A DNA stretch of 64,000 nucleotides. It comes from Paenibacillus oceani (lineage in GTDB: Bacteria; Bacillota; Bacilli; Paenibacillales; NBRC-103111). How positions within the stretch are numbered: position 1 is the first letter of the stretch; each line of letters begins with the position of its first letter. Below, piece after piece: positions 2,902 to 55,013 of this stretch. Below the pieces are notes generated by a model. The model ran no database searches. It was not told the DNA's origin and worked only from the letters and a program-made list of their open reading frames with translations. The stretch lies in contig NZ_JACXJA010000014.1 in assembly GCF_014705615.1 (NCBI RefSeq), positions 62,001 through 126,000 on the forward strand, given 5' to 3'. Both the position numbers and the translations under genes were made by a program.

Positions 2902-2909
2902 GGGGAAGT

Positions 2910-34020: not shown

Positions 34021-34023
34021 CGG

Positions 34024-35714: not shown

Positions 35715-36032
35715 AATGGGGCAACCTCCTTGCGTTCTCGGTTACCTCATTTTCTCATGGGATTCAATCCGTTTGAAGGTGGGAACAGTTTGACGCTTAC
35801 GATTTATCTGCCGGTTCGAGTCTCATCAAACCTATAATAATGTCCATTTTCTCCCCTATGGGGGTCTTTTGCTTCCACTATAATGATCATGTATCGGGGT
35901 ATAGAAGGGGGGCTCGCATGTTGCGCTTTCGAGTCATTGGCGGCTTGTCGGCAATCTCTGGGCGCTGGGCACGAAGAAGCGGAGATAGGCAAGCATAGAA
36001 ATAAGATCATCATGTTACGGAGGAATTCACAA

Positions 36033-37310: not shown

Positions 37311-37335
37311 AATAGCTTTCGAGGAGGATTCCGTT

Positions 37336-38640: not shown

Positions 38641-38674
38641 GCGGGACTGGGCCGACGGAGGGATGAGTGCGAGA

Positions 38675-39739
38675 ATGCAGGTTCATGAAGAGGCATACGG
38701 GCGATATGCCCGATTGTTGGATAAACCGCTGACCGCCGCAATCGAGGAAGGATTGACGCCCTGCATGACTGTCGCAGTTGTAAAGGACGGCCGGCTCGTA
38801 TACCGCTATGCGCACGGCCGTCCGACGCTGCACCCCGACGACCGCCGGTTCGTCGGAGCGGACACCGCTTTTAATGTCGGCTCAATTACGAAAATCGTAA
38901 CGTCGGCTCTGGCCGTCAAACTGATGGAAGCGGGCGTATGGTCGATGAACGACCCGGTTCGGCAGCACGTGCCGGAATATCCGTTCGCCGATGCGACTGT
39001 CGGACATCTGCTCACGCACAGCGCCGGGCACAAGAAGCAGCCGATTGCAAATCCGGCCCGCGGGGAAATGGAGACGTTCCTGAAGGGCGTCTACGAATCG
39101 CAGGAGCGCGAAGCGGCGCCCGGCGAACGTGCGGTATACGACACGGTCAACCACGAAATCGTGATGGATATGATTCAGCGGATCTCGGGACAACCGATCG
39201 AGCACAATGCGAGAGCCCTGCTGTTCAATCCCCTTGGAATGAAGCGTACGAGCTACGACAGTGCAATTTATGCGAACGGGGAATACGTGCTGCCCTGTTC
39301 TCTGGACAATAGGTCGGAGGAAGCGATGTTCGACCGGCGTGCTCCTCGTGGAGGAACTGGACTGCACTCCACCGCCGAAGACTTGGCGAAGTTCGCTTCC
39401 CTCTTTCTGTCCAAAGGACGTTGCGGCGATCGCGTCATCTTTTCGGAAGCGGCCGTCGATTTTATGCTTCGCGAATCGACAGACGGGAAATTCTCGAAAA
39501 CGCCGGTTATGTTTATAAAAACCGAACGTGATGCGTACGGCTGCTTCGCAGACCTGAATTCGCCGAGTGCGGTAGGCCATCCCGGCTTCAGCGGCTGCAT
39601 GATGATGGTCGATCCGGTCTATAGCGTCGCTGCGGCGATCGTCACGAATAGTCAACGGCTTCATCGTCACTGGAGAAACTACAAGCGGTTAATGAACCTG
39701 ATTATGGGCGCCTCGACTTCGATGAATTTGATCAAATGA
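38675..39739 (+). CDS. Serine hydrolase of the beta-lactamase (class C/EstB) family
   Basis: 354 aa. The SxxK motif is SITK (nt 38882-38893), a Tyr-x-Asn-like YDTVNHE follows, and GHPGFSG supplies the third motif. No signal peptide, so an intracellular esterase or amidohydrolase rather than a beta-lactamase is likely; in this island it may remove ester groups from imported oligosaccharides. ATG 38675 has GGAGGG 12 nt upstream; ATG 38663 (four codons earlier) abuts that sequence and is the alternative. Confidence 0.85.
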   Translation: MQVHEEAYGRYARLLDKPLTAAIEEGLTPCMTVAVVKDGRLVYRYAHGRPTLHPDDRRFVGADTAFNVGSITKIVTSALAVKLMEAGVWSMNDPVRQHVPEYPFADATVGHLLTHSAGHKKQPIANPARGEMETFLKGVYESQEREAAPGERAVYDTVNHEIVMDMIQRISGQPIEHNARALLFNPLGMKRTSYDSAIYANGEYVLPCSLDNRSEEAMFDRRAPRGGTGLHSTAEDLAKFASLFLSKGRCGDRVIFSEAAVDFMLRESTDGKFSKTPVMFIKTERDAYGCFADLNSPSAVGHPGFSGCMMMVDPVYSVAAAIVTNSQRLHRHWRNYKRLMNLIMGASTSMNLIK

Positions 39740-39833: not shown

Positions 39834-42521
39834 TCAGGCCGGGCCGTAAGCAAATCGGTAGCGGCCCGAGCCAAGCGTCAGGCGGACGCCATCTTGCTCC
39901 TGCTCGGCCGGTTCGAGGCCGACCGTCTCCGTATTGGTGAACGGACGGCCGTCAGCCTCCAGAAGGCGCAAGGAAGCACCCGGCAAAAAGACTTCCGCCG
40001 TCGTATTGGGCGGAATGACGACATCGATCCTCATATATCCGTCCTCGTTCCGTTCCCAGCCACAGCCGATTTCTCCGTACATCGATTCGTAGGTGGCGCG
40101 CGCGTAGCGAAAGCCTTCCGCGGGACGGGGATGGATGCGGATTCGCTTGAAGCCGGCTTCCACGTCGTCGGTATCGATGCCGGCCAGCATCCGGTACAGC
40201 CATTCGCCGATGGCCCCGTATGCATAATGGTTGTACGAATTCATCTCCGGACTCCATAACGCCCCGTCCGGCCGTATGCCGTCCCAATGCTCCCAGATCG
40301 TCGTCGCGCCTTGCAGAACGGAGTAGAGCCAAGACGGATATTCCTGTTGGAGCACGAGCCGGGCCGCCGTCTCATGATGGCCGTTCTGGGACAAGGCGAT
40401 GCACAAATACGGAGTACCGACGAAGCCGGTCGTCAGCTTATAGCCGTTGTCGGCGACCATTCGGTTCAGCGCATCCGCAACCCTGCGTCGGGTCTCGCCC
40501 TCTACAAGCCCGAACGCAAGCGCCAAGGCGTGCGCCGTCTGGGTCGGCGAACAGATTCGTCCGTTCGGCGAGACGAATTCGTTGCGGAATTCGGCGACAA
40601 TGCAGCGATGTTGCTCCGCGTATCGCAGTGAGTCCGCCTCACGGCCGAGGACGGCCGCCGCCTTCGCGACAAGACGGACGGAATAGGCGTAAAAGGCAGT
40701 GGCGATCAAGTCGCTCGCAGTCGCTCCTATATAGCTGCCTTCCTTGGCATCCATGCCGAGCCAATCGCCGAAATGGGCTCCGGTATTCCACAGCAGCTCG
40801 TTGTCGCCTTGGACGCGTATATATTCGACCCATGCCTTCATACTCTCATACTGGCGCTCCAGTATACGTTTGTCCCCATAGCACAAGTAGACGGTCCACG
40901 GACACACGGTGGCCGCATCGCCCCAAGCGGCCGAGGAGCGGGGAGCTTTCGTCAGCACGTCGGGAATAACGGCGGGTACACCGCCGTCGGGAAACTGATC
41001 GGCCGCAACATCGTTCAGCCATTTGCCGAAAAAAGAAGCGACATTCATATTGAACGATGCGGTGCGGATAAACACCTGGGCGTCTCCTGTCCAGCCGAGT
41101 CGCTCGTCCCGCTGCGGACAATCGGTCGGCACATCGAGGAAATTGCCGCGTTGCCCCCAGATGATATTGCGTTGCAGTTTGTCGACGAGCGGCTCGGAGC
41201 ATTCGAAGCGGCCGGTCTGCTCCATGTCCGAATGGATAACTCTGCCCAGAAAATGCTCTGTGGCAGGCTCGCCCGGATAGTTGTCGATCTGCACATAACG
41301 AAAGCCTTGAAACGTAAAGTGGGGTTCGTACGTTTCCGGCTCCCCGCCGCCCTTGCAAATATACACGTTCGTTTGTTTGGCCGTACGCAAATTGTCGGTG
41401 TACAGATTGCCGTCCTTGTCGAGAATTTCCGCATGGCGGAGAATGATTTGATGTCCGGCTTCGCCTCGTACCGTCATGCGGACCCAACCGACCATATTTT
41501 GTCCCATATCGAGCACGGTTTCACCCTTAGGCGTATGGAATACGGCGATCGGATGAATATTCTGCACAATACGAACAGGCTCGCTTTCCTGGGCGACCAG
41601 CATGTTCTTGCCGTGCGCTATGCACTCGCACATACGCCAGCGTCCGTCGACCTTAAAATTTGCCGTAGACCATCCGGCTTGTTCCAGCCGAGCGTCATAC
41701 GTTTCGCCGTGATAAATCTCCGACTGTACAATCGGCCCGGTCGAGCATGACCAGGAGGAGTCGGTCGTCACCATTTGCTCGGAGCCGTCCTCGTACTTAA
41801 GATGCAACTGGGCTAGAGCCGCTCTCCGGTTTCCATAATAATTGCGCTGATATTGCCGCCCTCCTAGCCAGCCGATATTGCCCTTGTACCAGCCATCACC
41901 GAGGACGATTCCGAGCGCGTTAGTTTGCTCCTCCAACAGGTCGGTGACGTCGTAAGCTTGCACTTGCAGCCGGCTGCGATAGCTCGTCCATCCCGGCGAG
42001 AACAGCGAATCGCCGACGCGCTTGCCGTTCAAGTGCAGCTCGTACAGTCCGAGGGCGGTGGCGTATACGGTGGCTCGCACGGGTCGCCCCTTCGGGATGA
42101 AGGTTGTACGCAAATAGTCGGCGGGGAGGGCTTCCTCCCTAAGAAGCGGCGGGGATATCCAGGAGGCCGACCATTCGCTCGTATCGAGCAGGCCCGTCTC
42201 CCAATAGGCGACATCGCTCCAATCGGACGGGATATCGGCTCTGTCCCATACGCGAACGCGATAATAGTAACGCGTTCGCGACTTCAAGGCCGGCCCGCCA
42301 TATTCGACGTGGATGGAACGATCGGACAGCGTCTTGCCGGAATCCCACAGCGGAGCGGAGAAGGTACTGTCCTCCTCGGCCACTTGTATACGATATGCCT
42401 GTTGGGCGACGTTCCGGCGTTCGGAGCGGATTTTCCAGCTTAAGCGCGGGATGGGGGTGCCCAATCCAAGCGGGTTCTGTTTATACTCCGTCTTCAGTTG
42501 GACGACAGCAAGCGATTCCAT
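39834..42521 (-). CDS. Alpha-L-rhamnosidase, GH78
   Basis: 895 aa, cytoplasmic (no signal peptide). Domain order is the GH78 one: N-terminal Fn3-like domain (~10-110), jelly-roll rhamnosidase domains (~130-340), the (alpha/alpha)6 catalytic barrel (~350-760) and a C-terminal beta-sandwich. The catalytic signature TDCPQRDERLGWTGD holds E473. It removes terminal alpha-L-rhamnose from oligosaccharides. ATG 42521 is preceded by AGAGGTG at 8 nt; GTG 42530 is too close to it. A TATACT -10 lies ~35 nt upstream. Confidence 0.93.
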   Translation of the reverse strand: MESLAVVQLKTEYKQNPLGLGTPIPRLSWKIRSERRNVAQQAYRIQVAEEDSTFSAPLWDSGKTLSDRSIHVEYGGPALKSRTRYYYRVRVWDRADIPSDWSDVAYWETGLLDTSEWSASWISPPLLREEALPADYLRTTFIPKGRPVRATVYATALGLYELHLNGKRVGDSLFSPGWTSYRSRLQVQAYDVTDLLEEQTNALGIVLGDGWYKGNIGWLGGRQYQRNYYGNRRAALAQLHLKYEDGSEQMVTTDSSWSCSTGPIVQSEIYHGETYDARLEQAGWSTANFKVDGRWRMCECIAHGKNMLVAQESEPVRIVQNIHPIAVFHTPKGETVLDMGQNMVGWVRMTVRGEAGHQIILRHAEILDKDGNLYTDNLRTAKQTNVYICKGGGEPETYEPHFTFQGFRYVQIDNYPGEPATEHFLGRVIHSDMEQTGRFECSEPLVDKLQRNIIWGQRGNFLDVPTDCPQRDERLGWTGDAQVFIRTASFNMNVASFFGKWLNDVAADQFPDGGVPAVIPDVLTKAPRSSAAWGDAATVCPWTVYLCYGDKRILERQYESMKAWVEYIRVQGDNELLWNTGAHFGDWLGMDAKEGSYIGATASDLIATAFYAYSVRLVAKAAAVLGREADSLRYAEQHRCIVAEFRNEFVSPNGRICSPTQTAHALALAFGLVEGETRRRVADALNRMVADNGYKLTTGFVGTPYLCIALSQNGHHETAARLVLQQEYPSWLYSVLQGATTIWEHWDGIRPDGALWSPEMNSYNHYAYGAIGEWLYRMLAGIDTDDVEAGFKRIRIHPRPAEGFRYARATYESMYGEIGCGWERNEDGYMRIDVVIPPNTTAEVFLPGASLRLLEADGRPFTNTETVGLEPAEQEQDGVRLTLGSGRYRFAYGPA

Positions 42522-42668
42522 GAGCAGCACACCTCTTATCTGATTTTTCCTCAGTATAGTACGGGGGCCAACTCGAAATCGAGGCGGGATTGGACATTAT
42601 TGCAGGCAGATAGGGACATGTCGCGCTTCCGGTCAGTCTGTACACTTTATTCATCACACAAATTGCTA

Positions 42669-42838: not shown

Positions 42839-44710
42839 ATGCATAATGGAGACGATTTAGGTATTAGCCGACGCAAGCTGCTGAAAAACATCGGTATCGC
42901 CGGTACGGCCGTAGCTGTCGGGACTATGCTTTCGCAAACGGGCGGTTCCACCGCGGAGTCGAAAGGAAAGAAAAAGACGACCGAGAGCGACTCGACGGGT
43001 GCGTGTGGGTGCGTGGCGCTGACCACCGATATGATCAGCGACTCGTATCCCGGCGTATCGGCCGGGGGGATGCTCGAGACCGGCGGCTTCTATACGGCCG
43101 GGATCGGCGGCGCGAAGTGGATGAAAACCGCCGATACAAGCGCACCTTCGCAGACGCCCGGACAACGCGGCTCGGCGACATTGACCGATGCCGACGGGGT
43201 CATATGGCAGTATGTGCCGAACACGATCGGCGAAGTGTACTTTGACGATCTTGGTGCGAAAGCCGATTATGACGCTGTCGCCAAGACGGGTACGGATAAT
43301 TCTCCGGTATTGAAAGCTTGCATAGCCTACGCCGGTGCTGGTATCATTCGGATATCGCGAGGATTATACGGTTTTTCTACTGCCCAATCGATTGTCTTCA
43401 ACAACCCCGTGATCGTCAAAGGAACGGGGCGAAGGTTCGGCAGCCGATTCTATTTTTTCGGTACGGGCCCCAAGTGGGTAAAGACACAAAGAAAGCATCC
43501 GGATGACGGAACGGATGATCCGATCTCGACGGCATTTTCCGTCGAAAGCGCCAATGTGCATTTGGAAGACCTGTACATCGCCAATGCTTTCTCGGGTACG
43601 GATCCGGCCGGTGACTACGGCTCGGACTGGGATGTAGGCATTTTTATCCGCTCGAAGTCGTTTTTCACCGCAACGCGCGTCAGGGTGGAAGGGTATTGGC
43701 GCTTGGCCGGGACGATGTATGATGTCACCCAGGAGAGGGGCAACTGCGACGGCAGCACGCTGCATGATTACTGGTCGTCCGGATTTTGGGGACTGCTCGT
43801 ATACGGACCGTTGCCCAAAACGGGTACGGATTCGATCGTCTCCGGCGACTTGCGCGGCGCCGGCGGATTTTCGGACTTTTACATCTATGGAAGCTCCCGC
43901 TTTTTCGATATGAATCATCATCGCGGCTCACGCATGTCGGACACCGACGGCGGCGCTTTCAAAATCGACGGGAACATAAATACGCCTGCAAAATCGATCC
44001 AGGGACATCATTTTCACGGCACCCGGTTCGCCAGCTCCTCCCCCTACTCGATCCGGGTCGGCGCAAGCAGCAGAGACTATTTCGTCCAGTGCCATATCGA
44101 AAGATTTACCGGGAGGTATAAGGCCGACGGGGTTACGCCGGCAAACGATACGCATATCGAGATTTCGGCGGATGCCCGCCATACGAAGTTCGACAAGACC
44201 GTCTGGTACAACCAGGGCACCAACGTGTTCGTGGGAAACGATTTGGAGTTCCGAATGTGCGTAGAAGGGTTCAGCTCGGGACAAAAGCCGTATTATCATA
44301 CTCAGACTTTCGCGCCCCGCTTGTCGACCTCGACCGGCGGAGTGCTCCCCGATGGTCAGCATGCGATCCGGCAAGGGTATTGGCGGAAAGGGGAAGGGAT
44401 CATCACGTTCAGCATTCGGCTGCAGTTGAACGACATTACGGGCGCATCGGGCAATGTCTCCATCATCGGCTTGCCGGCGGCGATCATGAACAAAACGAAC
44501 GGACATGAATTCGTAAGTGTCATGACCTTGAATGTATCGCATGGCACTGGAACCGGCTCGATTCAAGGGTTGATCGGCCCGAATTCCGACAAAATCGATC
44601 TGTACTTGAACCGAAGCGGCGCCGGCAGCAGCAGGCTGACAGCTGCGGAGCTGCTGTCGTCGAGCTTTTTCCATGTAACCGGGACCTTGATGATCGAACC
44701 ATCGGTGTAG
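42839..44710 (+). CDS. Tat-exported tailspike/pectate-lyase-like protein 1
   Basis: 623 aa. Twin-arginine signal ISRRKLLKNIGIAGTAVAV at the N-terminus. Next is a tailspike entry motif (ETGGFYTAGIGGAKWM), then a right-handed beta-helix-like region (~130-470) of short irregular repeats, and a C-terminal domain (~500-623: RQGYWRKGEGIITFSIRLQL ... SSSFFHVTGTLMI) that resembles phage tail-fibre ends. No phage genes are nearby. Probably an exported polysaccharide depolymerase. GGGAGG lies ~10 nt before ATG 42839. Confidence 0.75.
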   Translation: MHNGDDLGISRRKLLKNIGIAGTAVAVGTMLSQTGGSTAESKGKKKTTESDSTGACGCVALTTDMISDSYPGVSAGGMLETGGFYTAGIGGAKWMKTADTSAPSQTPGQRGSATLTDADGVIWQYVPNTIGEVYFDDLGAKADYDAVAKTGTDNSPVLKACIAYAGAGIIRISRGLYGFSTAQSIVFNNPVIVKGTGRRFGSRFYFFGTGPKWVKTQRKHPDDGTDDPISTAFSVESANVHLEDLYIANAFSGTDPAGDYGSDWDVGIFIRSKSFFTATRVRVEGYWRLAGTMYDVTQERGNCDGSTLHDYWSSGFWGLLVYGPLPKTGTDSIVSGDLRGAGGFSDFYIYGSSRFFDMNHHRGSRMSDTDGGAFKIDGNINTPAKSIQGHHFHGTRFASSSPYSIRVGASSRDYFVQCHIERFTGRYKADGVTPANDTHIEISADARHTKFDKTVWYNQGTNVFVGNDLEFRMCVEGFSSGQKPYYHTQTFAPRLSTSTGGVLPDGQHAIRQGYWRKGEGIITFSIRLQLNDITGASGNVSIIGLPAAIMNKTNGHEFVSVMTLNVSHGTGTGSIQGLIGPNSDKIDLYLNRSGAGSSRLTAAELLSSSFFHVTGTLMIEPSV

Positions 44711-44771
44711 CAAACCGTTTTGAGTTTCATGAAGTGGCAGACTGGAAATACGTACCTTAGGAGGAAATGAA

Positions 44772-45848
44772 ATGTTCGTACCGTTTTGGCAGTGCAACGT
44801 TATGCGCGAAGAGTCGATCTTGCTCGTCTCCGAATCGGGTCGGCCGCCGGAAGCTCGACTGCTTTATGACCCGCTCGAAATCGACATCGTGCAAGACGCC
44901 TGTAAATCGACACAGTATGTGCGAGGGAAAGACTGGATTTGGGAGGACGGACGACTGAAGCTGACTCCCCATTCGCGTGCCGCCTGGCTGACCGAGGAGC
45001 GACTGCACCCGACCGAGTCGGACGAAGTCCGGAAATGGCCGAAATACGGCGGAGGTTATGCGCTGGCGGAGAGCCCCCCTTTTTTTCACCGTCATCAGTT
45101 GCTTGTCACTTATACGCATGGCGGGCAGCATCGGGATTGGCCGGTGCCTCGGCGTGCAGAGCATGAGCTGCCGCAATTGTTCCGGAAACTGGCGAACGGC
45201 GAACCGGTTCGCATCGCGCTGTACGGGGACAGCATATCGGCAGGCTCCGATGCGAGCGGTCCGCTTCGCGTGCCGCCTTATTCGCCCGGTTGGGGAGAGA
45301 GGTTTGCCGGTATGCTTCGCGAAGCGTACCCGGCGTCGTCGATCGAATGGATCAATGCTTCCAAGGGAGGGACCACCTCGGCATGGGGGGCAGCAAATGC
45401 GTCGAATCTGGTGGCCGTGCACAAGCCGGATTTGACGATTGTGGCGTTCGGGATGAACGACGGCACGAGTAAAGTGCCGCCCGACGTTTTTCGGAACCAA
45501 ACGAGCCTTATTATGAAGGAAGTGAAGCGGCTGCAGCCGTCGGCGGAATTCGCGTTGATCGCCACCTCTCTGCCGAATCCCGAGCTGACGATCGCGTCTG
45601 AGGGTGAGCATCGAAGCTACCGGGACGTTATTCGGTCCTTGACCGGACCGGGAGTCGTGATGGCGGATATGACGACGATGCACGAGCGGTTGCTCCAGTA
45701 CAAGCAGTACCGTGATATGACCGGCAACAATATTAACCATCCCAACGATTTCCTGGCCGGCGTATATTCCGATTTTGTCGGCTCGTTGTTTTTATCCGCG
45801 CCGGCGCTAAGCAGTAAGGGATCATCAGGAGTGGGAGTTGAAGGGTGA
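44772..45848 (+). CDS. SGNH/GDSL hydrolase
   Basis: 358 aa, no signal peptide. A ~140-residue N-terminal beta domain of unknown function precedes the SGNH fold: block I YGDSISAG with nucleophile S154, Gly in NASKGGTTS, Asn in FGMNDG, and the terminal NHPNDF with His. Likely removes O-acyl (acetyl) groups from oligosaccharides. TAGGAGGAA precedes ATG 44772. It sits 61 nt after the tailspike gene. Confidence 0.85.
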   Translation: MFVPFWQCNVMREESILLVSESGRPPEARLLYDPLEIDIVQDACKSTQYVRGKDWIWEDGRLKLTPHSRAAWLTEERLHPTESDEVRKWPKYGGGYALAESPPFFHRHQLLVTYTHGGQHRDWPVPRRAEHELPQLFRKLANGEPVRIALYGDSISAGSDASGPLRVPPYSPGWGERFAGMLREAYPASSIEWINASKGGTTSAWGAANASNLVAVHKPDLTIVAFGMNDGTSKVPPDVFRNQTSLIMKEVKRLQPSAEFALIATSLPNPELTIASEGEHRSYRDVIRSLTGPGVVMADMTTMHERLLQYKQYRDMTGNNINHPNDFLAGVYSDFVGSLFLSAPALSSKGSSGVGVEG

Positions 45849-45867
45849 TTGCAAGGGGGAATGGAGG

Positions 45868-45897
45868 TTGAGCCTGACATCGAGATACGGATATAAT
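45868..45897 (+). promoter_or_regulatory. Sigma-A-type promoter of the AraC regulator gene
   Basis: TTGAGC (45868-45873), 18-bp spacer, perfect TATAAT (45892-45897). It overlaps the first ATG of the regulator frame (45896), which argues for the downstream GTG start. Confidence 0.6.
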
Positions 45898-45946
45898 GAC
45901 CTTGTGGATTGAAAAAACACGAGATCTGTTTGGGAGGTACGGGAAT

Positions 45947-46834
45947 GTGATCAGAAGACCTATCGAGTCGGCACAGGGGCAGTTTTACTTCGGACAAGAT
46001 TTCCCTATCTTCGTGAACAGATCGAGCGAAAAATTCAGGCTGCAGGAGCATTCGCATGACTTCGTCGAGATTACATACGTGTCCGAAGGAAAGGGATTTC
46101 ATTATATCGGAGATCGGATTGTGCCGGTAAGGAAAGGGGACTTGTTCTATATTCCCGTAGGTATTTCCCATGTGTTCCGTCCGGCGGATGCGGCTGTAAA
46201 AGATCCGTTGATCGTATATAACTGCATATTTGGCCTGGAACTGTTCGACCGGGTCTTAGACAGCCATTCGATGCTGCTTCCGTCGGAGGATGCGGGTGCT
46301 CTGCTTTCCATTCGAAACAGGACCGAGTGGCTTAAAGTGGAGGAGCGGTCTGCCGAAATGAGAAGCTTGATGCAGCGCCTTTATCAGGAATTCGCCTTCA
46401 GGCAGGAAGGCCGCGCCTTGATGATTCTCACTTATGTTGTCCAACTGCTGCTCGTTTTGTACCGCTCGATGGGCGGCAAACCCAGCCACACATGCGCCGA
46501 AGCCGACACCAGAATAGAAGAAGCGATCCGCTATATTCATCGTAATCTGGAAACGCCATTGTCGCTGACCGAAATTTCCGCGAAAATCAGTATCGGGAAC
46601 AGGCAGTTCAATCGATTGATCAAGAAAGCGACAGGTCAAACTTATACCGATTATGTACACTCCATGCAAATCGAGCGTTGCTGCGAGCAATTGCGGACGA
46701 CGGATCGGAAAGTTTACGAGATCGCGGAATCGATGGGGTTTAAAGACATGAAGCATTTCCATATCATATTCAAACGAAAAACCGGGGTTTCCCCGATGAC
46801 ATACAGAAAGAACGGTTACCTGGACAACATCTGA
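45947..46834 (+). CDS. AraC-family transcriptional regulator with cupin sensor domain
   Basis: 295 aa from GTG 45947, which has GGGAGGT 8 nt upstream and lies past the promoter; ATG 45896 is the alternative. N-terminal cupin fold (~15-150: QEHSHDFVEITYVSEGKG, VRKGDLFYIPVGISHVF) for sugar sensing; C-terminal double HTH (~195-295: TEISAKISIGNRQFNRLIKK, YEIAESMGFKDMKHFHIIFK). Likely controls the neighbouring tailspike and rhamnosidase genes. Confidence 0.88.
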   Translation: MIRRPIESAQGQFYFGQDFPIFVNRSSEKFRLQEHSHDFVEITYVSEGKGFHYIGDRIVPVRKGDLFYIPVGISHVFRPADAAVKDPLIVYNCIFGLELFDRVLDSHSMLLPSEDAGALLSIRNRTEWLKVEERSAEMRSLMQRLYQEFAFRQEGRALMILTYVVQLLLVLYRSMGGKPSHTCAEADTRIEEAIRYIHRNLETPLSLTEISAKISIGNRQFNRLIKKATGQTYTDYVHSMQIERCCEQLRTTDRKVYEIAESMGFKDMKHFHIIFKRKTGVSPMTYRKNGYLDNI

Positions 46835-47524
46835 TCTCTGTTTCACTGACGATTCGATCGGGTTCTTTTTACTCCACACAAGAAACGGGGTGCCGCCCGT
46901 ATGTTGATCAAATCGATGAACCAATAGATTGATCTGGATTTGAGCTGTTTAACATACAACCTATGCAAGCTCGCGTTAGACCGTCTGAATAAAAACATCC
47001 TTGAGACTAAGAAAGCTGCGTAATATTTTCAAAATATGTGTTTTGTACTTTAAGCTTGATGCAACCCTTTTGAGCATAAGGAATTCTAAAATCGACTTTA
47101 CGCGCAGGAATAGTATGGTTTGAGATCCATTATTAGAAGATTCGTGCGGCTGAACAGGAATATGCTTACGACGACACAATCAAGTAACAACTATAGTTTG
47201 ATCCCATTGCGCCTCCAATTGTTGCAGAAAAGTGTTCGGTTTCGCTTGTTTGGTCTTCAACCGGTTCCAGGGCATCTGCGATATGGGCAATAGGCTACGC
47301 CTTCAGGAAATGATTCCTCCGGGAAAAGCTGCGTTTAAGGGAAGGGATTCCGGTAGACGTCGGCGTGGTAGAAGAGTTGTGGGAATTGGCCCGTTTGCTC
47401 GGTGTCGCGTCCTTGTGGGGGACATGAGACGGTGTGTGTAGAATGCAGGAAGGCTCCTTCGTTCAGCCTATTTGGGCTTGAATGAAGGAGCTGTCCCACC
47501 TCCAATAGGGTCAGGGACTTGTGC
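46835..47524. other. Gene-poor gap with possible decayed coding traces
   Basis: 690 bp without a supported gene. Near 47330-47430 a short stretch reads like a protein C-terminus (GIPVDVGVVEELWELARLLG) after a frameshift, hinting at a decayed gene. A hairpin at 47452-47492 (GCTCCTTCGTTCA with TGAATGAAGGAGC, one mismatch) may end the convergent lacI and araC transcripts, though no long T run follows. Confidence 0.4.
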
Positions 47525-48568
47525 TCAGGAAAGCGGATCATTTCGGGAGACGCTCCCGCAGCTGCCCCGGACGAACAGCTCGGAAGGAATAACGACGTTT
47601 TGCGGCTGACGCTCTTTTTTGCGGGAAATCAGCTTGAACAGCATTTTGGCCGCGTTGTTTCCAATGACGTATAGGTCTGTGCTGTAGGAGGTGATGTCGT
47701 ACATCTCGGCCAATTGGGAATTTTCGAAACTGACGACGGCGATATCGCGCGGAATGTCCATTCCGCGTTCTTTGGCGTACTTCAGAATGCCTACCGCTTG
47801 AACGTCCCGTCCGGCCACGATAGCCGAAGGCGATTCGCCGCTAGCGAAGAAATGCTCCATCGCCCGATATCCACTGGCCTTGCTGTCGTCCCCTACATAA
47901 AAAAGTCGTTCGTCCGGTTCGATGTACGCATCCTTCAGAGCGCTCGAATAGCCTTCATATCGGTCTTCGCTGACGAGAAAGTCGAGCGGTCCCGGACTGA
48001 TAAAGGCGATCCGCTTATGACCTAGCTTCAGCAGATGGCTCGCGCACTCGTATGACGCCTGGAAATTGTCGATATCGACCGAGTCGACCGGTTTGTCCGA
48101 ATAGTGGTTCCCCATGAATACAAACGGAAATTTGATCTCGATCAGCTGGTCGATGATCGTATGGTCGTGGTTCGGGATCAGAAACAACAGCCCGTCTACC
48201 GAGCCGCTGCGCGCAAGCTCGATGACCTTGGACGGCTTTTCCTTGTCAGGACGGTCCCAGGCAAGCAGCAGGTTGTAGCCCTTCTCACCGGCGACCTCGC
48301 CGATTCCTTGCAGCAAATTGGCGAAAAGCTGGTTGCCGGAAAAAGTGAAGATCGAGGAATCCGGATGTGGGACGAATATGCCGATATTGTTCGATTTCCG
48401 GGTGACCAAGCCTCGGGCGGCCGAGTTGGGCTGGTAGTTCAGCCGTTCGATCGTCTCGAATATCCGTTTTTTTGTTTCGGGCGCTACAGGGGCCGTTCCG
48501 TTAATGGCGAAGGACACCGTCGAGATCGAAACGCCGGCTTCCCGGGCTACGTCTTTAATCGTACTCAT
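47525..48568 (-). CDS. LacI-family transcriptional regulator
   Basis: 347 aa from ATG 48568, which follows GAAGGAGCC; the ATG eight codons earlier would include the SD. The HTH is STIKDVAREAGVSISTVSFA with the hinge helix NSAARGLVTRKSN; the periplasmic-binding-like sensor (~60-340) binds a sugar effector. It is divergent from the BNR-SBP-tailspike-SASA-GH78 operon, and two CG-centred palindromes lie in the shared control region. Confidence 0.92.
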   Translation of the reverse strand: MSTIKDVAREAGVSISTVSFAINGTAPVAPETKKRIFETIERLNYQPNSAARGLVTRKSNNIGIFVPHPDSSIFTFSGNQLFANLLQGIGEVAGEKGYNLLLAWDRPDKEKPSKVIELARSGSVDGLLFLIPNHDHTIIDQLIEIKFPFVFMGNHYSDKPVDSVDIDNFQASYECASHLLKLGHKRIAFISPGPLDFLVSEDRYEGYSSALKDAYIEPDERLFYVGDDSKASGYRAMEHFFASGESPSAIVAGRDVQAVGILKYAKERGMDIPRDIAVVSFENSQLAEMYDITSYSTDLYVIGNNAAKMLFKLISRKKERQPQNVVIPSELFVRGSCGSVSRNDPLS

Positions 48569-48603
48569 GCATTTAGGCTCCTTCGAGTGCAAGTGTTGTC
48601 TCT

Positions 48604-48633
48604 ATTATATCGTTTTGATTGCGGTTGGTCCAA
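48604..48633 (-). promoter_or_regulatory. Promoter of lacI
   Basis: Minus strand TTGGAC (48628-48633), 18-bp spacer, TATAAT (48604-48609), 36 nt before the ATG. Confidence 0.6.
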
Positions 48634-48649
48634 TAAATTCGCCAAATTT

Positions 48650-48664
48650 ATAAAACGTTTTTAT
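48650..48664. promoter_or_regulatory. LacI-family operator O1
   Basis: ATAAAACGTTTTTAT, with a perfect AAAACGTTTT core, lies one base before the -35 of the plus promoter and 17 bp behind the -35 of lacI. Confidence 0.65.
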
Positions 48665-48665
48665 A

Positions 48666-48693
48666 TTGACCGTTATGAATATTTTGGTATAAT
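48666..48693 (+). promoter_or_regulatory. Promoter of the BNR2-SBP2-tailspike2-SASA-GH78 operon
   Basis: TTGACC (48666-48671), 16-bp spacer, TATAAT (48688-48693), giving a long (~235 nt) leader before the first gene. Confidence 0.65.
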
Positions 48694-48775
48694 CAAAATA
48701 TAAATTGGTTTTTGGTGCGATAATGACTAAAAATCAATGGGTTCTAATTGTTTTTATTGTTTTTTTTATTTTTTT

Positions 48776-48791
48776 ATAAAAACGTTTTTAT
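48776..48791. promoter_or_regulatory. LacI-family operator O2
   Basis: ATAAAAACGTTTTTAT, a perfect 16-bp palindrome with a central CG, inside the leader. Centre-to-centre distance to O1 is ~126 bp, about twelve helical turns. Confidence 0.7.
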
Positions 48792-48897
48792 TATTTGAGG
48801 GGGTGTTTTTAGTTTTGTGATAAAAGGTTTTTATCTTATGGCATTTGAACACAGTTCTTTAATGGAGAACGTTACGGGAGTCGATGAAATTGTTTGC

Positions 48898-48911
48898 AAT
48901 GAATAGCGTTT
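48898..48911 (+). promoter_or_regulatory. Weak cre-like site
   Basis: AATAGCGTTTACTT region fits the cre core (AGCGTTTAC) with about 11 of 14 consensus positions, 26 bp before the BNR2 start. Confidence 0.25.
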
Positions 48912-48936
48912 ACTTGCGTGAAGGGAGTGGACCAGA

Positions 48937-50220
48937 TTGAACGAATGGAATCGAAACCGAGTCCGGGAGCTGGCTCCCGAGTACGTCACGATCTACGAAT
49001 CGCCCGATCCGAGTCGTATATTCGCATACAGTCCCGGAATCGCCATTCTTCCGAACGGAAGATTGATCGCGACGCTGGATATTAGCGGCCCGGGAATGGC
49101 CGAGATGCCCGGGCCGAGCCGGAGGATTGAAGGAGGCGCGCTTTGGTGCGGCAAAATTTATACGTCGGACGATAACGGGCGTTCTTGGACGCACCGGGCC
49201 GACTTCCCGTTTATGCACGCCCGTCCGTTTGTGGCCGGCGACAGCGTGTACGTATTGGGTCACTGTCATGACCTTACGGTCATTAGCTCCAATGACGGTG
49301 GAGTGACCTGGAGCGAGCCCCGTACGCTCACGGAGGGGCAATGTTGGCATCAGTCCCCGGCCAACGTCGTTCACGCCAATGGAAACGTATACTTGGTCAT
49401 GGAGCGGATCACGAAGCCGGATATCCATGGTTGGCCAGTCAGCGTGATGGCTCCGGTGCTGCTCCGCGGACGGGAGGATGCCGATCTGACCCGCCGGGAC
49501 AATTGGACGTTCGCCTCGGAGCTCATCTTCGAAGAGGCGGTGCCGGAGGATGAGCTGGACTATTTCGGCGTCCCGTTTTACCGGGTCGAGGGGAAGGGGG
49601 GGCACAATCGGATAGTTCCCGGCAGAACTTGCTTTCGAATGGGCTGGCTGGAAACGAATATCGTCCGCTTCGTCGACGAGAACCATTACTTTTTCGATCC
49701 GACCGGACGTACGTTTCACTTATGGATGCGCGCGCATACGGGCGGAACCGGATTTGCAGCTATGGCGAAAGCGGTCGAGCGAGAAGACGGCACGATCGAG
49801 ACGATGCTGGAAACGACGCCTTCGGGCAAACGCATTGCCTTCGTTCCTTGTCCGGGCGGGCAGATGAAGTTCCATATCGTGTATGACGAAATTTCTCAGC
49901 TATACTGGTTGCTGAGCACGCAAGCTACGGACAGCATGACGCGTGCGGAGAAGCTTTCGGATGACCGTTTCAGTTTGCCGAACAACGAGCGCAATCGACT
50001 GCAGCTTCATTTTTCCAAAAATGCGATCGATTGGTGTTTCGCCGGACTCGTTGCAAAGACGGAGCATTCCGCGGCGGCTCGCCATTATGCGAGTATGGTC
50101 ATAGCGGGCGACGATCTGCTGATTTTAAGTCGATCCGGAGATGAAAGCGCTTCATGCGCGCATAACGGAAATTTGATTACGCTTCACCGTATCGATCGGT
50201 TCAGGGAATTGGCGTATTGA
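48937..50220 (+). CDS. BNR/Asp-box beta-propeller protein, copy 2
   Basis: 427 aa, TTG start with AAGGGAG upstream. Close paralogue of the protein at 36033: shared FAYSPG near the start, YTSDD(G/N)G, HARPFVAG, a near-identical stretch ENHYFFDPTGRTFHLWMRAH and CPGGQMKFHI. Asp-boxes are SDDNGRSW and SNDGGVTW. No signal peptide. Catalytic type not determinable; propeller lyases acting on rhamnose-uronate linkages are one possibility given the GH78 partner. Confidence 0.75.
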   Translation: MNEWNRNRVRELAPEYVTIYESPDPSRIFAYSPGIAILPNGRLIATLDISGPGMAEMPGPSRRIEGGALWCGKIYTSDDNGRSWTHRADFPFMHARPFVAGDSVYVLGHCHDLTVISSNDGGVTWSEPRTLTEGQCWHQSPANVVHANGNVYLVMERITKPDIHGWPVSVMAPVLLRGREDADLTRRDNWTFASELIFEEAVPEDELDYFGVPFYRVEGKGGHNRIVPGRTCFRMGWLETNIVRFVDENHYFFDPTGRTFHLWMRAHTGGTGFAAMAKAVEREDGTIETMLETTPSGKRIAFVPCPGGQMKFHIVYDEISQLYWLLSTQATDSMTRAEKLSDDRFSLPNNERNRLQLHFSKNAIDWCFAGLVAKTEHSAAARHYASMVIAGDDLLILSRSGDESASCAHNGNLITLHRIDRFRELAY

Positions 50221-50254
50221 TCGAATGAAACATTGTATAAAAGGGGAGATTGCG

Positions 50255-51574
50255 GTGTTTAACAAAAAAATTACGGGAATGGCGGTCGCCGCCGTATCGA
50301 TCGGACTGCTCGCAGGATGTGGAGGAGGCAAAACGGGTACGGAGGCGGTTCCCGAGACGAAGACGGAGGAGCCGCCCAAGCCGGTAACGTTGAAAGTATA
50401 CACGGCGGCGAACGATAGCGACTTTGAGAAATATTACAATCAGTTCGTCAAGAAAAAATTTCCGCATGTCACCTTGGAGAGGATGGAAAAAAAGGCGCAG
50501 CCGCCGTCGGTCGTATACCCGCAAATGCTGGCGGCGGGCACGATGCCGGACATCATTACGGAAGGGTTGACCAACTTGGCGGCGCTGAAGGAGTTAGACC
50601 TGATGACCGATCTGGGGCCGCTTGCCAAGAAGCACGGCTTCAACTTCGAACCCTACAATTCGAAAATAATCGAGAGCATCAAGTCGTACGGCGAGAAGGG
50701 CGAGATGTACTACTTGCCATTTTCCGTGCTCGGCTTCGCGCTGCACTACAATAAAGACATCTTTGACCGTTTTGGCGTTCCGTATCCGAAAGATTTCATG
50801 ACCTGGGACGACGTGATCGAGATCGGTAAGCAACTGACGCGCGTGGACAGCGGCGTCCAATATGTCGGCATCCGTCCGCCGCTGCAGATGAACCGGATGT
50901 CCGGCCAGCTGTCGTTGCCGTATGCCGATGCGTCGTCCAAGAAGTCGCTTGTGAACAGTGCCGGCTGGAGACAACTTTTCGAGATGACGAAGCAGATAGA
51001 GGACGCGCAAGGCAAGCCGCCGGCCGATGCGTTTTTCCGTTCGCGCGACGTGTTTATGAAAAATAAAACGATAGCGATGCTTCCCGACATATTGGCTTTG
51101 CAGAATGTCGATATGGTCGCGATGGCGAATGGCGGTCTGAACTGGGACGTTGTGACGTTCCCGAGTTTCAAGGAAAATCCCCGTGTCGGTACCGGCGTCT
51201 TTTCGGACGGCTTTACCCTTCCGAAAGGAGGCAAAAACGAAGATATCGCGTTTCAGGTCATTGCCTACTTAAGCTCCGATCAGGAGGTGCAAACGAACTC
51301 CACCCGCTCCGGTCTCGTCACCGCCCTGAACGATGCGGGCATACGTGACCAGGCATTTGCGGACCATCCCGCGGCCAAGGGCAAAAATCTGAAACATATT
51401 TTCGACATGCAGTATCCGACACCTGCCCGATCGACCACCTATGACTCCGCTGTGCTCGGCATTATGAACAAATATTTGGTCAACTTCATTAACGGCACCA
51501 CCGATGTCAACTCTGCGCTTCGAGATGCGGCGGAGGAAGCGGACAAAAAGATAGCCGAGCTTTCCGCCAAATAA
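50255..51574 (+). CDS. Extracellular solute-binding lipoprotein, copy 2
   Basis: 439 aa from GTG 50255 (AAGGGGAGA 8 nt upstream). Lipobox LLAGC at ~residue 20, then KPVTLKVYTAAN, MPDIITEGLTNL and LHYNKDIFDRFGVPYPKD, aligned with the protein at 37336. No transporter genes adjacent. Part of the LacI-controlled operon. Confidence 0.88.
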   Translation: MFNKKITGMAVAAVSIGLLAGCGGGKTGTEAVPETKTEEPPKPVTLKVYTAANDSDFEKYYNQFVKKKFPHVTLERMEKKAQPPSVVYPQMLAAGTMPDIITEGLTNLAALKELDLMTDLGPLAKKHGFNFEPYNSKIIESIKSYGEKGEMYYLPFSVLGFALHYNKDIFDRFGVPYPKDFMTWDDVIEIGKQLTRVDSGVQYVGIRPPLQMNRMSGQLSLPYADASSKKSLVNSAGWRQLFEMTKQIEDAQGKPPADAFFRSRDVFMKNKTIAMLPDILALQNVDMVAMANGGLNWDVVTFPSFKENPRVGTGVFSDGFTLPKGGKNEDIAFQVIAYLSSDQEVQTNSTRSGLVTALNDAGIRDQAFADHPAAKGKNLKHIFDMQYPTPARSTTYDSAVLGIMNKYLVNFINGTTDVNSALRDAAEEADKKIAELSAK

Positions 51575-51597
51575 TGGAGGTAAAGGAGAGAGGGAAG

Positions 51598-53514
51598 ATG
51601 GACGATCGGATGACCAGAAGAAAAGTGCTGACCGCCTTTGGTGTTGTTGGTTCGGCATTCGCGTCGCATGCGATGCTGAAGGGAATATCTTCGGCGTCGG
51701 CGGGAAGTCAATCCGTCATGAACCATATGTACGGGCTGGGGAGCAGCTTCCATTCACTCTGCTCGGTCGATTCGCTCGCCGAGTTGCGAACCTTCAACCC
51801 GCCGCACCCGTCGAGCGTACTCGTTACTGGCTATTACTCGCCCGGGGATGGGGGCGAAGGACTGTATGTGCTGGACGCCGCAGACACGACTTCGTCGGAC
51901 AATGGCGGCACCGTAATCGCGGCGGTATCGGGCGGGCGCTGGAAGCTGGCGCAGGCTGAAGATATTAGCGCACGGCAATTCGGGGCAAGAGGCGACGGAA
52001 GTGCGGACGATTTCGCGCATCTGCAAGCATGGCTTAATTGCGGGTACAAATCGCTCTATTTGCCGGCTGGCAAATTTGTTGTCGACGGGAATACGCTGCA
52101 CGTTCCTATGGGATTGGTCATCCGGACCGACGGGTACGCCTCGGAGCTGAACTTCCGCAATATGACGGGTATCGATGGCATGAACGTTTTGGAGGGCAAT
52201 GCGCATGAGGCGCTTTCGATCGGGCCGCTGACGATACGGACGATCGGCACGATCGGCAGGTATGCGATCGTTACGCCCAATGGGACGGGTATTTTTGCCA
52301 ATAAAAGGCCGAGATACGATTTCGACGTGTTTTTTCTCGGAGCGGACAGCGGGAAGACGATATTCCCGGGAGAAGGCTGGGACGTTGTCGTCCAGATGGG
52401 AGACGCTAGGGGCGGCACGGTCGCCCTGACCGGCTTCGGCACCTTCAATCCGAATGAGGACCCGGCAGGTCAACATCAGATGACAGGCATACGCTTATCG
52501 GGTGCGGTTGGCAACATCCAAGTGGATATGACCTTGAGGTTGAACAACTTGTATCGTGGCGTCGAGCTCGGCAGCGGGACGGAAGGCTTTCACATCGGAA
52601 GCGGCTCGGAAATCGTCGGCTGCTGGTACGGCATCGAGGCGACCAATTCTTCGTCCGAGCCTGGAGGGTTTATTACCGCATGTCATGTGAATGCCGTCGG
52701 TATGGCGTATAAGCTCGTGAAGCGCCCCGAAATGATCATTTCCGGCGTCTCCGCCTATCGATCCGACGCTTTTTTCAACCATTCCGGTGAATGGCGCGGC
52801 ATTCACCTGGAAGATTGCCAACGAGTGCAGATTAGCGGGGCCAACATCGTGCATGGCTCATTGCCCCATCTATCGACTTCTGTAGGCGTATATGCGCTGC
52901 GTTCTTCCGGAACTGTCACAAATTACGATATCCAGAAGGCGGCGGATATCGGTTTTGTCATCGATGCTTGTCCCGATCTGACGATAGCGAGTGGCGCTTT
53001 CCTGGAAATTCCGAAGCTGTTCGAGCTGCGCAACGGCTCGACGGACATCACGATCGGCGCCTACACGCTGAGGGGTAATCACACGGCGGTGACGGCTTGC
53101 ATCGCGATGGATGCGTCGATCAACCGAACGCGAATATTCGCGGTGCAAGACGTGCCGAATCCGGCGGTCAAGCGATACCAAGCGGTGAGTGTTTCAGCCG
53201 CCGGTACATATACGGTAAAGCCGAGAATGACCCCGACCGAGCTGCAATTCGCTCCGACGGCCGGAACTGCTGCTTACGTCTATGACATCATGTTGGATAA
53301 AGATCATTCTGTCGCGGGCGATACGGCCACGATCAAAGTTATCGGCTCCTCCTCCGCCAATCCGACCGTTCGTATTTTGAACGGGACCGGAGGAGCCGTA
53401 CTCTCCTCGTTTGACAGTTCGGCCGGCGGCAAACGGATCGTTTGCGCATATTTGTTCGACGGTACAGGCTGGTTGGAACGTAGTGTAGTCGATTCGGCCG
53501 AAACATCCTATTAG
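51598..53514 (+). CDS. Tat-exported tailspike/pectate-lyase-like protein 2
   Basis: 638 aa from ATG 51598 (AAGGAG at a good distance). Twin-arginine signal MTRRKVLTAFGVVGSAFAS. It then has the tailspike-type entry motif GYYSPGDGGEGLYVL and the head of a right-handed beta-helix (RQFGARGDGSADDFAHLQAW, LYLPAGKFVVD). The helix runs to ~490, and a C-terminal beta domain ends the protein. Only the signal, entry motif and fold are shared with the protein at 42839; the C-terminal domains differ. Probably an exported depolymerase. Confidence 0.75.
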   Translation: MDDRMTRRKVLTAFGVVGSAFASHAMLKGISSASAGSQSVMNHMYGLGSSFHSLCSVDSLAELRTFNPPHPSSVLVTGYYSPGDGGEGLYVLDAADTTSSDNGGTVIAAVSGGRWKLAQAEDISARQFGARGDGSADDFAHLQAWLNCGYKSLYLPAGKFVVDGNTLHVPMGLVIRTDGYASELNFRNMTGIDGMNVLEGNAHEALSIGPLTIRTIGTIGRYAIVTPNGTGIFANKRPRYDFDVFFLGADSGKTIFPGEGWDVVVQMGDARGGTVALTGFGTFNPNEDPAGQHQMTGIRLSGAVGNIQVDMTLRLNNLYRGVELGSGTEGFHIGSGSEIVGCWYGIEATNSSSEPGGFITACHVNAVGMAYKLVKRPEMIISGVSAYRSDAFFNHSGEWRGIHLEDCQRVQISGANIVHGSLPHLSTSVGVYALRSSGTVTNYDIQKAADIGFVIDACPDLTIASGAFLEIPKLFELRNGSTDITIGAYTLRGNHTAVTACIAMDASINRTRIFAVQDVPNPAVKRYQAVSVSAAGTYTVKPRMTPTELQFAPTAGTAAYVYDIMLDKDHSVAGDTATIKVIGSSSANPTVRILNGTGGAVLSSFDSSAGGKRIVCAYLFDGTGWLERSVVDSAETSY

Positions 53515-53618: not shown

Positions 53619-55013
53619 ATGAAAGACGATCGGGAGAACGCGTTGACGGTATCGCGCCTTTTCTCCGACCATGCCGTTATTCAGCGGCGAAAGGAGATAC
53701 AAGTTTGGGGGAGTGCGCCGGACGGCACGGAAGTGACCGTAACGTTTGCTGGTCGAACCAGGTCGGCGATCGCCGAGAGCGGCCGGTGGAGCGTCCGGCT
53801 CGATCCAATGGAAGCCGGAGGTCCGTACGAGCTGCGCATAACGGACGGAGAACGGGAAATCGTCGCGCGCGATGTGCTTGTCGGCGAAGTATGGGTAGCC
53901 GGAGGACAATCGAATATGGGTTACTCGTTCTCGGAAATCGGCGGTGTGCATGCCGAGGGGGAATGCGAGGAACTGAATGGCTCACATGACTCGATCCGGC
54001 TATTCAAGGCGGCGGAGCATGCAAGCGATTGCCCGGAAACGGACTTCGCGGGTGGAGACTGGAAGCGGTTGTCTGCCGGGCTGCTGCCCGGCCTTGCCGC
54101 CATTCCGGTATATTTCGCCATCGAACTGCAACGCCGGCTGAATGTTCCGATCGGCATCGTCCAGCTGTCCAGAGCGGGCACGAAGGCGGCTTGCTGGGTT
54201 CCGCGGCGATTGGCGGCTCAGCCGGAGTTCGCTTATTTGCTCGAGGAGGAAGCTGTGGAGAGGGAGAAACTCAGTCACGAGAATCCGCACCGGCCGTTCG
54301 CCCTGTATCACGGGACGGTTATACCCGCCCAACCGTTTGCGATACGCGGATTTATTTGGTATCAAGGCGAAAGTGATGCGCTGGAAGGGAAAGCGGACCG
54401 GTACTCCCTTCTGTTTCCGGCTCTGATCGACGCCTGGCGGGATGGTTGGGACGAGCCGGATGCGCCGTTCCTGTTCGTGCAGCTGCCCGGATACGACAAA
54501 GGGACGGAGCAATGGGCGATCGTGAGAGAAGCTCAGCGACTGGCAGCCAAGCAAGTTCCCCATACGGGGATGGCTGTCACGATCGATTTGGAGGAGCGGG
54601 GCGAGCTGCATCCGAAGCGGAAACGACCGGTGGTGGAACGGTTGGCGCTGTTGGCGGGCGCGATCGTGTACGGCGATCGTGCAACCGGACGCGGTCCGGA
54701 GCTCCTGCGGGCATACGCGGCAAGCACGGGTACTTGCGTCACATTCGATATCGCCGACAGCGCGTTGGCGATCAAGGCAGGGGAGCCCCTCGACGGATTC
54801 GAGCTGTGCGGGGAGGACGGCCGATTCGTGTCGGCCCGGGCGGAGGTCGTCGGGCCGGATACGGTACGGGTCCTTCACGACGAGCTTGCGGAGCCGGTAC
54901 GGATTCGCTACGGATGGGCGGCTGCGCCGATCGTCCGGCTTACAAACCGCGAGGGGAATCCGGCAAGTCCGTTTCGAACGGACATCAACAGAGAGATGGG
55001 AGAGCAACTATGA
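53619..55013 (+). CDS. Sialate O-acetylesterase-type (SASA) esterase
   Basis: 464 aa, no signal peptide. N-terminal beta domain (~1-85); catalytic block GGQSNMGYS with S98, IWYQGESD with the oxyanion/Gly-Glu block, and LHPKRKR with H331. SGNH-like acetylesterases of this family remove O-acetyl groups from sugars, including rhamnogalacturonan and xylan. GGGAGG is upstream; its stop overlaps the rhamnosidase start, so both likely act on the same oligosaccharide. Confidence 0.88.
   Translation: MKDDRENALTVSRLFSDHAVIQRRKEIQVWGSAPDGTEVTVTFAGRTRSAIAESGRWSVRLDPMEAGGPYELRITDGEREIVARDVLVGEVWVAGGQSNMGYSFSEIGGVHAEGECEELNGSHDSIRLFKAAEHASDCPETDFAGGDWKRLSAGLLPGLAAIPVYFAIELQRRLNVPIGIVQLSRAGTKAACWVPRRLAAQPEFAYLLEEEAVEREKLSHENPHRPFALYHGTVIPAQPFAIRGFIWYQGESDALEGKADRYSLLFPALIDAWRDGWDEPDAPFLFVQLPGYDKGTEQWAIVREAQRLAAKQVPHTGMAVTIDLEERGELHPKRKRPVVERLALLAGAIVYGDRATGRGPELLRAYAASTGTCVTFDIADSALAIKAGEPLDGFELCGEDGRFVSARAEVVGPDTVRVLHDELAEPVRIRYGWAAAPIVRLTNREGNPASPFRTDINREMGEQL

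Follow-up and report, generated by a model that had tools for sequence, protein, structure and literature searches.

We analysed a 64,000-nucleotide stretch of the Paenibacillus oceani genome (assembly GCF_014705615.1, contig NZ_JACXJA010000014.1, positions 62,001 to 126,000 of the forward strand), called the window below, in which two genes encode proteins, P0001 and P0002, that begin with a leader of the twin-arginine translocation (Tat) type and continue into a body resembling a phage tailspike. A preliminary description of this DNA had proposed both genes together with their entry motifs, and the open frames were found where it placed them (table 1). P0001 has the N-terminal twin-arginine stretch SRRKLLKNIGIAGTAVAVG and the motif GGFYTAGIGG, and P0002 has the twin-arginine stretch TRRKVLTAFGVVG and the motif GYYSPGDGG. 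The open frame of P0002 spans 51574-53514 (646 amino acids) and its residues are counted here from 51574; considering that a ribosome-binding stretch precedes the ATG at 51598, this ATG is the likely start. The Tat signal of P0001 was called by the NCBIfam model TIGR01409 at 17.7 bits, just above the cut-off of 16.7, and that of P0002 is based on a pattern and on the family alignment. Between the two proteins we found a match of 34 leader residues only (E 0.009), the best match of their bodies having an E value of 0.35. These two genes turned out to belong to a large family, in which one conserved leader (a Tat signal, often a VxxSVYG-like peptide and often an entry domain) bears very different bodies of the phage-tailspike type. 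Several of the bodies are related to phage proteins, the family is expanded in this genome and in its genus, and its genes are linked to those of solute-binding proteins (SBPs), with few permease genes linked to them.

On sequence comparison, P0001 is the weaker phage case of the two. At about residues 64-167, P0002 matched PHROG profiles, the best of which (2.6e-23) has no known function, while the best named ones were tail fiber (8.1e-20) and exopolysaccharide (EPS) depolymerase (3.5e-14); it also matched the tail fiber of PDB entry 5w5p (4.2e-6). A total of 28 phage records matched P0002, and among the 20 listed, 19 matched residues 32-208 only and one matched the body, a protein of phage contig MT835615 that was 27.6% identical to residues 142-633 (E 8e-35). 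MT835615 is an unannotated record titled UNVERIFIED, and its gene roles were assigned by inspection of the frames; beside the relative of P0002 there are baseplate, terminase, and lysozyme-like frames. The tail spike of phage PSK1 was matched weakly (7e-4), and two plasmid records covered 10-13% of P0002. P0001 matched three phage records at 25-30% identity (residues 115-542, 225-620, and 212-421), two of them annotated as tailspikes, and its match to a Rhizobium phage protein extends to residue 620. Searched alone, residues 476-623 of P0001 gave no match to this Rhizobium phage protein at E 0.01 and reached phrog_25871 at E 0.028 only, and the tail-fibre-like end that the preliminary description assigned to this protein is therefore tentative. 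Scans of viral contigs with P0001 and with P0002 found no relative, and among 36 viral stretches that fitted the pattern of the P0002-body alignment (A3) there was no relative. The S74 chaperone (PF13884) was absent from both proteins in Pfam.

The preliminary description, which had pointed to two host-encoded Tat-type proteins with tailspike-type bodies, was borne out well beyond these two genes. A search of the genome with P0002 found 38 places, most of them matching in the leader and entry domain only. With a profile (A1) built from 31 members, 127 matches were obtained in the same genome (at most 150 candidates scored), and P0001 was recovered at 2.9e-31 after two rounds that included P0001 itself. 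In 87 fetched stretches of this genome we identified 97 family open reading frames (ORFs; at least 150 amino acids, profile E 0.01), of which 91 had a Tat-type leader and 6 did not. Here the leader was recognized by a twin-arginine pattern together with a hydrophobic segment. This test is loose, and 22 of the 344 other long genes called in these stretches passed it as well. An entry domain was detected in 54 of the 91 leader-bearing ORFs and a helix start in 24 more, leaving 13 with neither at the thresholds used; the family consensus holds the helix-start motif FGAKGDG..DD. Gene calling relied on a simple codon score, and two members that it missed (L019 and L044) were added by hand to alignment A4. 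At one locus (L037, contig C71), a tailspike-like ORF without a Tat leader (2255-3841) lies just 5' of a 138-residue ORF (3870-4286) consisting of a Tat leader and entry domain only, a pair that may be a rearranged or decayed copy.

Leader and body behaved very differently. Among 89 proteins with 400 or more amino acids, 77 allowed the cut between the two to be placed, giving a median leader of 122 amino acids over the 77 proteins and a median body of 476. Among 1275 pairs of entry-class members, 711 were related in the leader (a count that alanine-rich leaders may inflate) and 31 in the body (blastp 1e-3); an earlier cut, placeable in 50 proteins, gave 318 versus 17 of 496 pairs. The bodies fell into 31 groups, 26 of them single. 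Moreover, a VxxSVYG-like peptide follows the Tat signal near the likely mature start in 52 of the 89 proteins, while counts in 200 shuffles averaged 3.7 and never exceeded 9.

The preliminary description had suggested that these proteins were adopted from phages, and the phage relation was found for P0002 and three further members, the greater part of each body being alignable with proteins of particular phages, although the direction of transfer is unproved. Member L046 was 36-37% identical over residues 59-805 to tail-fibre proteins of Bacillus phages (SPO1L5, CampHawk, SP82G, and others; 12 listed of 49 records), and it matched phrog_23059 at 1e-143, as did L043 at 1e-138; L046 had no match in the PDB by sequence. 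L040 was 26.9% identical over residues 166-741 to a KonjoTrouble phage protein (appendage or tail spike) and matched phrog_7458 at 5.4e-69, and L031 was 37% identical over residues 125-671 to proteins of SKML-39, Ag3, and Dickeya phages (12 listed of 76 records). We take the matched phages to be SPO1-group, phi29-like, and Ackermannviridae phages. Local relatives of the P0001 body were found in this genome (L022, L031, and L225) and in named Paenibacillus genomes (L093 and L110), the last two adjoining SBP-like and BNR-like frames; the body of P0002 had no relative in this genome by blastp. PHROG family 2234 (tail spike) was matched by 24 of the 52 entry-class members scanned, at best with 7.5e-89, and family 4250 (EPS depolymerase) by 32 of them. 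Tail_spike_N (PF18668) was found in 1 of the 35 other members scanned, and no head-binding family occurred among the seven families listed for each of the two sets. The S74 endosialidase chaperone, present in 1 of the 52 and 1 of the 35 members, ends four relatives in genomes of the same family, namely L286, a relative of P0001, and L291-L293, relatives of P0002; all four also have Tat-type leaders by inspection. An entry-domain tree of 51 host and 50 viral sequences required 8 changes of the host label (well-supported branches force at least 3), compared with 33.9 in shuffles. In this tree P0002 forms a pair with L018 close to the viral L143 and falls outside a starred set (36 rows) to which the main host group belongs. 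The tree is based on 105 columns, leaves 53 of its 98 inner branches open, and gives no direction of transfer.

Part of these observations could be accounted for if the family were a set of ordinary secreted enzymes for plant walls, with a beta-helix like that of GH28 and pectate lyases, and if the likeness to phages reflected a shared fold. PF12708 was indeed matched by 30 of the 52 and 25 of the 35 members scanned, GH28 and pectinesterase were matched by one member each, and the best PDB matches of the leader profile were glucanases at the helix start (3eqn, 1.3e-22; 5m5z, 2.3e-21). A shared fold does not fit well with whole bodies matching specific phage proteins, with S74 chaperones on relatives, or with entry domains that intermix with viral ones in the tree; moreover, P0002 scored below the PF12708 cut-off (23.3 bits, cut-off 27) and P0001 did not match this family. 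We therefore consider the pectinase-like explanation unlikely.

The distribution of the family was then investigated with scoring limits of 150, 33, 12, or 8 candidates per genome, so that match counts are lower bounds or partial. Of 104 genomes belonging to the window's taxonomic family (Paenibacillaceae, judging from named relatives), 35 had matches to profile A1 (E 1e-15, at most 33 candidates scored each), and at least 10 matches were found in all five genomes of the genus and in three further genomes (G016, G062, and G103). The four other genomes of the genus had 23, 116, 127, and 159 matches (at most 150 candidates scored each). In a sample of 398 genomes of the phylum, the 397 others were negative and only the genome itself matched (E 1e-20, at most 8 candidates scored each). 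Among named genomes, 307 relatives were detected, the best 80 of which defined 78 loci, 77 in Paenibacillus and 1 in Cohnella. The bodies were far more restricted: counting the source genome itself, relatives of P0001 at the level of the body occurred in 2 of 103 genomes (1e-12, at most 12 scored each), and those of the P0002 body in 4 of 104 (E 0.001). A Tat-type leader was found on 90 of 92 family ORFs in named genomes versus 4 of 92 in viral contigs. Of these four viral cases, L160 is a chance pattern, and L201-L203 are one protein whose likely start lies beyond the pattern. The latter had been candidates for Tat-bearing spikes inside phages, with terminase, head, and head-tail adaptor genes near the spike in L202, and were rejected, as AGGAG stands just 5' of an internal ATG and the Tat-like stretch is probably not in the protein.

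In the window, the neighbours of P0001 and P0002 are arranged in two modules (table 1). They had been named as a binding lipoprotein, a BNR propeller, esterases, and GH78 rhamnosidases, and Pfam confirmed these names, with BNR_2 below its cut-off. The BNR, SBP, and GH78 proteins are common to both modules, whereas the spike bodies differ. By inspection, the spikes have export signals of the Tat type and the SBPs are lipobox-like, while none was seen in the GH78 proteins, the BNR proteins, and the esterases. P0013 matched phrog_382, a "minor tail protein with lysin activity" (6e-21), and P0003 matched a PHROG lipase family (7.4e-8) and a tail family (6.6e-7); these matches presumably reflect shared hydrolase folds. 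Near the first module there is also a tyrosine-recombinase-like frame (33564-34304, minus strand), which appears truncated by inspection.

Table 1. Genes of the two modules in the window (coordinates are positions in the window)
Feature	Coordinates	Strand	Remarks
BNR propeller-like protein, first module	35883-37310	+	62.6% identical to 48937-50220
Solute-binding lipoprotein, first module	37300-38640	+	37.0% identical to 50225-51574
Serine hydrolase, beta-lactamase/esterase fold (P0013)	38663-39739	+	PF00144, 8.3e-47
GH78 alpha-L-rhamnosidase, first module	39834-42530	-	PF17389, 1.8e-121; 42.7% identical to 55019-58240 over 801 positions
P0001	42839-44710	+	623 amino acids; Tat-type leader, residues 9-33; GGFYTAGIGG at entry; tailspike-like body, about residues 200-623
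GDSL-type esterase (P0003), directly 3' of P0001	44772-45848	+	PF13472, 1.4e-14
Probable AraC-type regulator	45896-46834	+	By inspection and by its group in neighbour clustering
LacI-type regulator	47525-48592	-	PF00356, 1.2e-16
BNR/Asp-box propeller-like protein	48937-50220	+	BNR_2, 0.00043, below cut-off; no export signal seen
Solute-binding lipoprotein, directly 5' of P0002	50225-51574	+	PF01547, 2.3e-17; lipobox-like LLAGC
P0002	51598-53514	+	Tat-type leader; entry domain, about residues 64-167; tailspike-like body to C-terminus
SASA-type carbohydrate esterase	53619-55013	+	PF03629, 1.6e-17
GH78 alpha-L-rhamnosidase	55019-58240	+	PF17389, 4.9e-122; open frame from 54446, start probably near 55019

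Across the family, the constant neighbour is the SBP gene. Of 89 spikes, 77 have one no more than 3 kb away and 85 no more than 5 kb away; in eight control stretches (L272-L279), hand-picked from contigs without listed matches, 4 of 85 genes have one within 3 kb. The gene immediately upstream on the same strand encodes an SBP in 24 of 50 entry-class members and in 20 of the 34 others, versus 65 of the 916 other genes. Among the loci of named genomes, 62 of 78 have an SBP no more than 6 kb away, and in 23 of 77 cases the SBP gene directly precedes the spike, while none of 80 viral loci contains one. SBP_bac_1 matched at least 149 times in the genome itself, with 150 of 348 candidates scored, and of 147 SBPs in the fetched stretches, 12 have a permease of the kind occurring here within 4 kb. 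There are 182 genes within two genes of entry-class members; 129 of them were scanned (130 chosen, one dropped), and among the first 25 of 116 families SBP_bac_1 occurred 30 times and the AraC type 17 times. Near one family member (L021), a serpin is encoded at 4352-5701 on the minus strand (PF00079, 8.8e-113).

The absence of virion genes beside the spikes, already remarked for the window, held for the entry-class neighbours scanned: of the 43 PHROG families matched by these 129 genes, the first 25 include none for head, tail, or lysis. This result bears on the idea that the genes are tailspikes left over from decayed prophages, which the relation of the bodies to phage spikes, the truncated-looking recombinase-like frame in the window, and two integrase families among the 129 neighbours (one member each, perhaps the same protein) would suggest. 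Considering that Tat leaders occupy the place of virion-binding domains and that many long open copies exist throughout the genus, we regard prophage remnants as a very improbable explanation. A further alternative is that the spikes are surface lectins or decoys, whose bodies bind and hardly cut, and which organise the cell's own matrix or occupy phage receptors. A constant leader with varied bodies does resemble a recognition repertoire, the VxxSVYG-like peptide could be a docking tag, and lectin-like agglutination is described for the related WceF of Pantoea stewartii in the accessible part of its published account (PMC7949094). The same part of that account shows that WceF cuts its glycan as well (PMC7949094), and the SBP linkage fits feeding better, so that lectins or decoys seem to us rather improbable, somewhat more so than pectinase-like enzymes.

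Tat is usually a minor export route in Bacillota. We think it fairly probable, judging from the sequences, that the family consists of Tat-exported, phage-related depolymerases acting with mostly orphan binding lipoproteins. A spike, presumably a beta-helix, would fold in the cytoplasm, probably as a trimer, and would be exported by Tat in the folded state. Tat would be needed instead of the general secretory (Sec) route because the trimer would have to interlock before export, and the S74 chaperones on relatives fit this requirement. Outside the cell, the spike would cut a particular polysaccharide, and the released pieces would be caught by the solute-binding lipoprotein encoded next to it, imported through a permease encoded elsewhere, and finished by cytoplasmic enzymes, which in the window would be GH78 and the esterases. 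Dozens of spike-like proteins with an export signal, mostly encoded near a sugar-binding surface protein, suggest a conversion of viral tools into equipment for handling slime and wall sugars.

Several results weigh against this proposal. With respect to the Tat signals assigned to both proteins in the preliminary description, P0002 was not called by the NCBIfam model, and Pfam TAT_signal had no match in the whole genome at E 0.001, which is why the loose test was used elsewhere and the NCBIfam model for P0001; the assignment thus stands for P0001 by NCBIfam and for P0002 by pattern and alignment. The genome encodes a single TatC. P0001 has no VYG peptide by inspection, no Pfam family at E 0.1, and no PDB match by sequence, and its position in the entry-domain tree is unsure. 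A lipobox pattern was found in 100 of the 147 SBPs. An SBP also lies within 3 kb of 122 of 283 other long genes in the same stretches, and part of the linkage between spikes and SBPs is therefore local SBP density. Only 7 of the 89 spikes have a permease of the kind occurring here at a distance of up to 5 kb; the idea that each spike has its own complete sugar-transport operon was dropped for this reason. Among the first 25 of 116 neighbour families, GH78 occurred once, in the window's own gene, so carbohydrate-active enzymes (CAZymes) are not a general neighbour. Of the two kinds of gene that the preliminary description proposed to survey beside Tat-tailspikes, SBPs recur, and GH78 was seen among these listed families in the window only. 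Likewise, the proposed scavenging of a surface polysaccharide gains from the family-wide SBP linkage and loses in that CAZymes are no general neighbour and permeases are mostly absent nearby, and it would still be a matter of interpretation.

As nearby permeases are rare, the SBP may be a sensor or relay. A bolder form of the proposal can be offered tentatively, and we hold it to be possible but doubtful: the host would have a capture-and-display platform, in which unrelated phage tailspike bodies were repeatedly grafted onto one leader of Tat signal, VYG peptide, and entry domain, giving some 80-90 exported glycan-cutting spikes, many of them paired with an orphan SBP that senses or relays the products and is not part of a transporter. 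If this is true, a bacterial lineage has converted one of the fastest-evolving phage parts into a large exported enzyme kit by means of Tat, and its genomes would hold a naturally occurring collection of enzymes that depolymerise capsules and exopolysaccharides. It would also become testable how frequently tailspike bodies pass into host gene families.

Tat-exported tailspike-like proteins are a known kind, since there is a precedent in WceF. According to the accessible part of its description, WceF is a host-encoded protein with a Tat signal, a trimeric tailspike-like right-handed beta-helix that hydrolyses the exopolysaccharide stewartan; it is a single gene of the exopolysaccharide synthesis cluster, is conserved in Pantoea and Erwinia, and has a P22-like head domain (PMC7949094). 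The Paenibacillus spikes are likewise host-encoded tailspike-like proteins with a Tat signal (that of P0002 by pattern and alignment), and they are known here from their sequences. In contrast to WceF, they occur as dozens of paralogues per genome, with another entry domain and with SBP neighbours, and no P22-like head domain family is listed for their members. The neighbours in the window are SBP, BNR, GH78, esterases, and regulators, not an exopolysaccharide synthesis cluster. PDB entry 6tgf (736 residues), which we take to be WceF, was matched by A1 at chain residues 212-282 only (E 3e-5). In the full texts covered, which included few subscription papers or preprints, we found no report of Tat-exported tailspike-like proteins in Paenibacillus and none closer than WceF.

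Compared with the tailspike and tail-fibre depolymerases of phages (PHROG tail families; PDB 5w5p, 8iq9, and 5w6p), the family has a related entry domain, and several bodies are related over most of their length; what differs is that a Tat-type leader replaces the virion-attachment part and that the listed neighbour families include no virion genes. The S74 endosialidase-type spikes (PF13884) are resembled by the four relatives that end in S74, and not by P0001 and P0002, which lack it. With secreted proteins related to GH28 and PF12708 the family shares the helix start in its consensus, from which P0002, under the PF12708 cut-off, and P0001, with no match, depart. New here are therefore the scale of the family, its lineage, the leader with its entry domain, single bodies that match different phages, and the linkage to SBPs.

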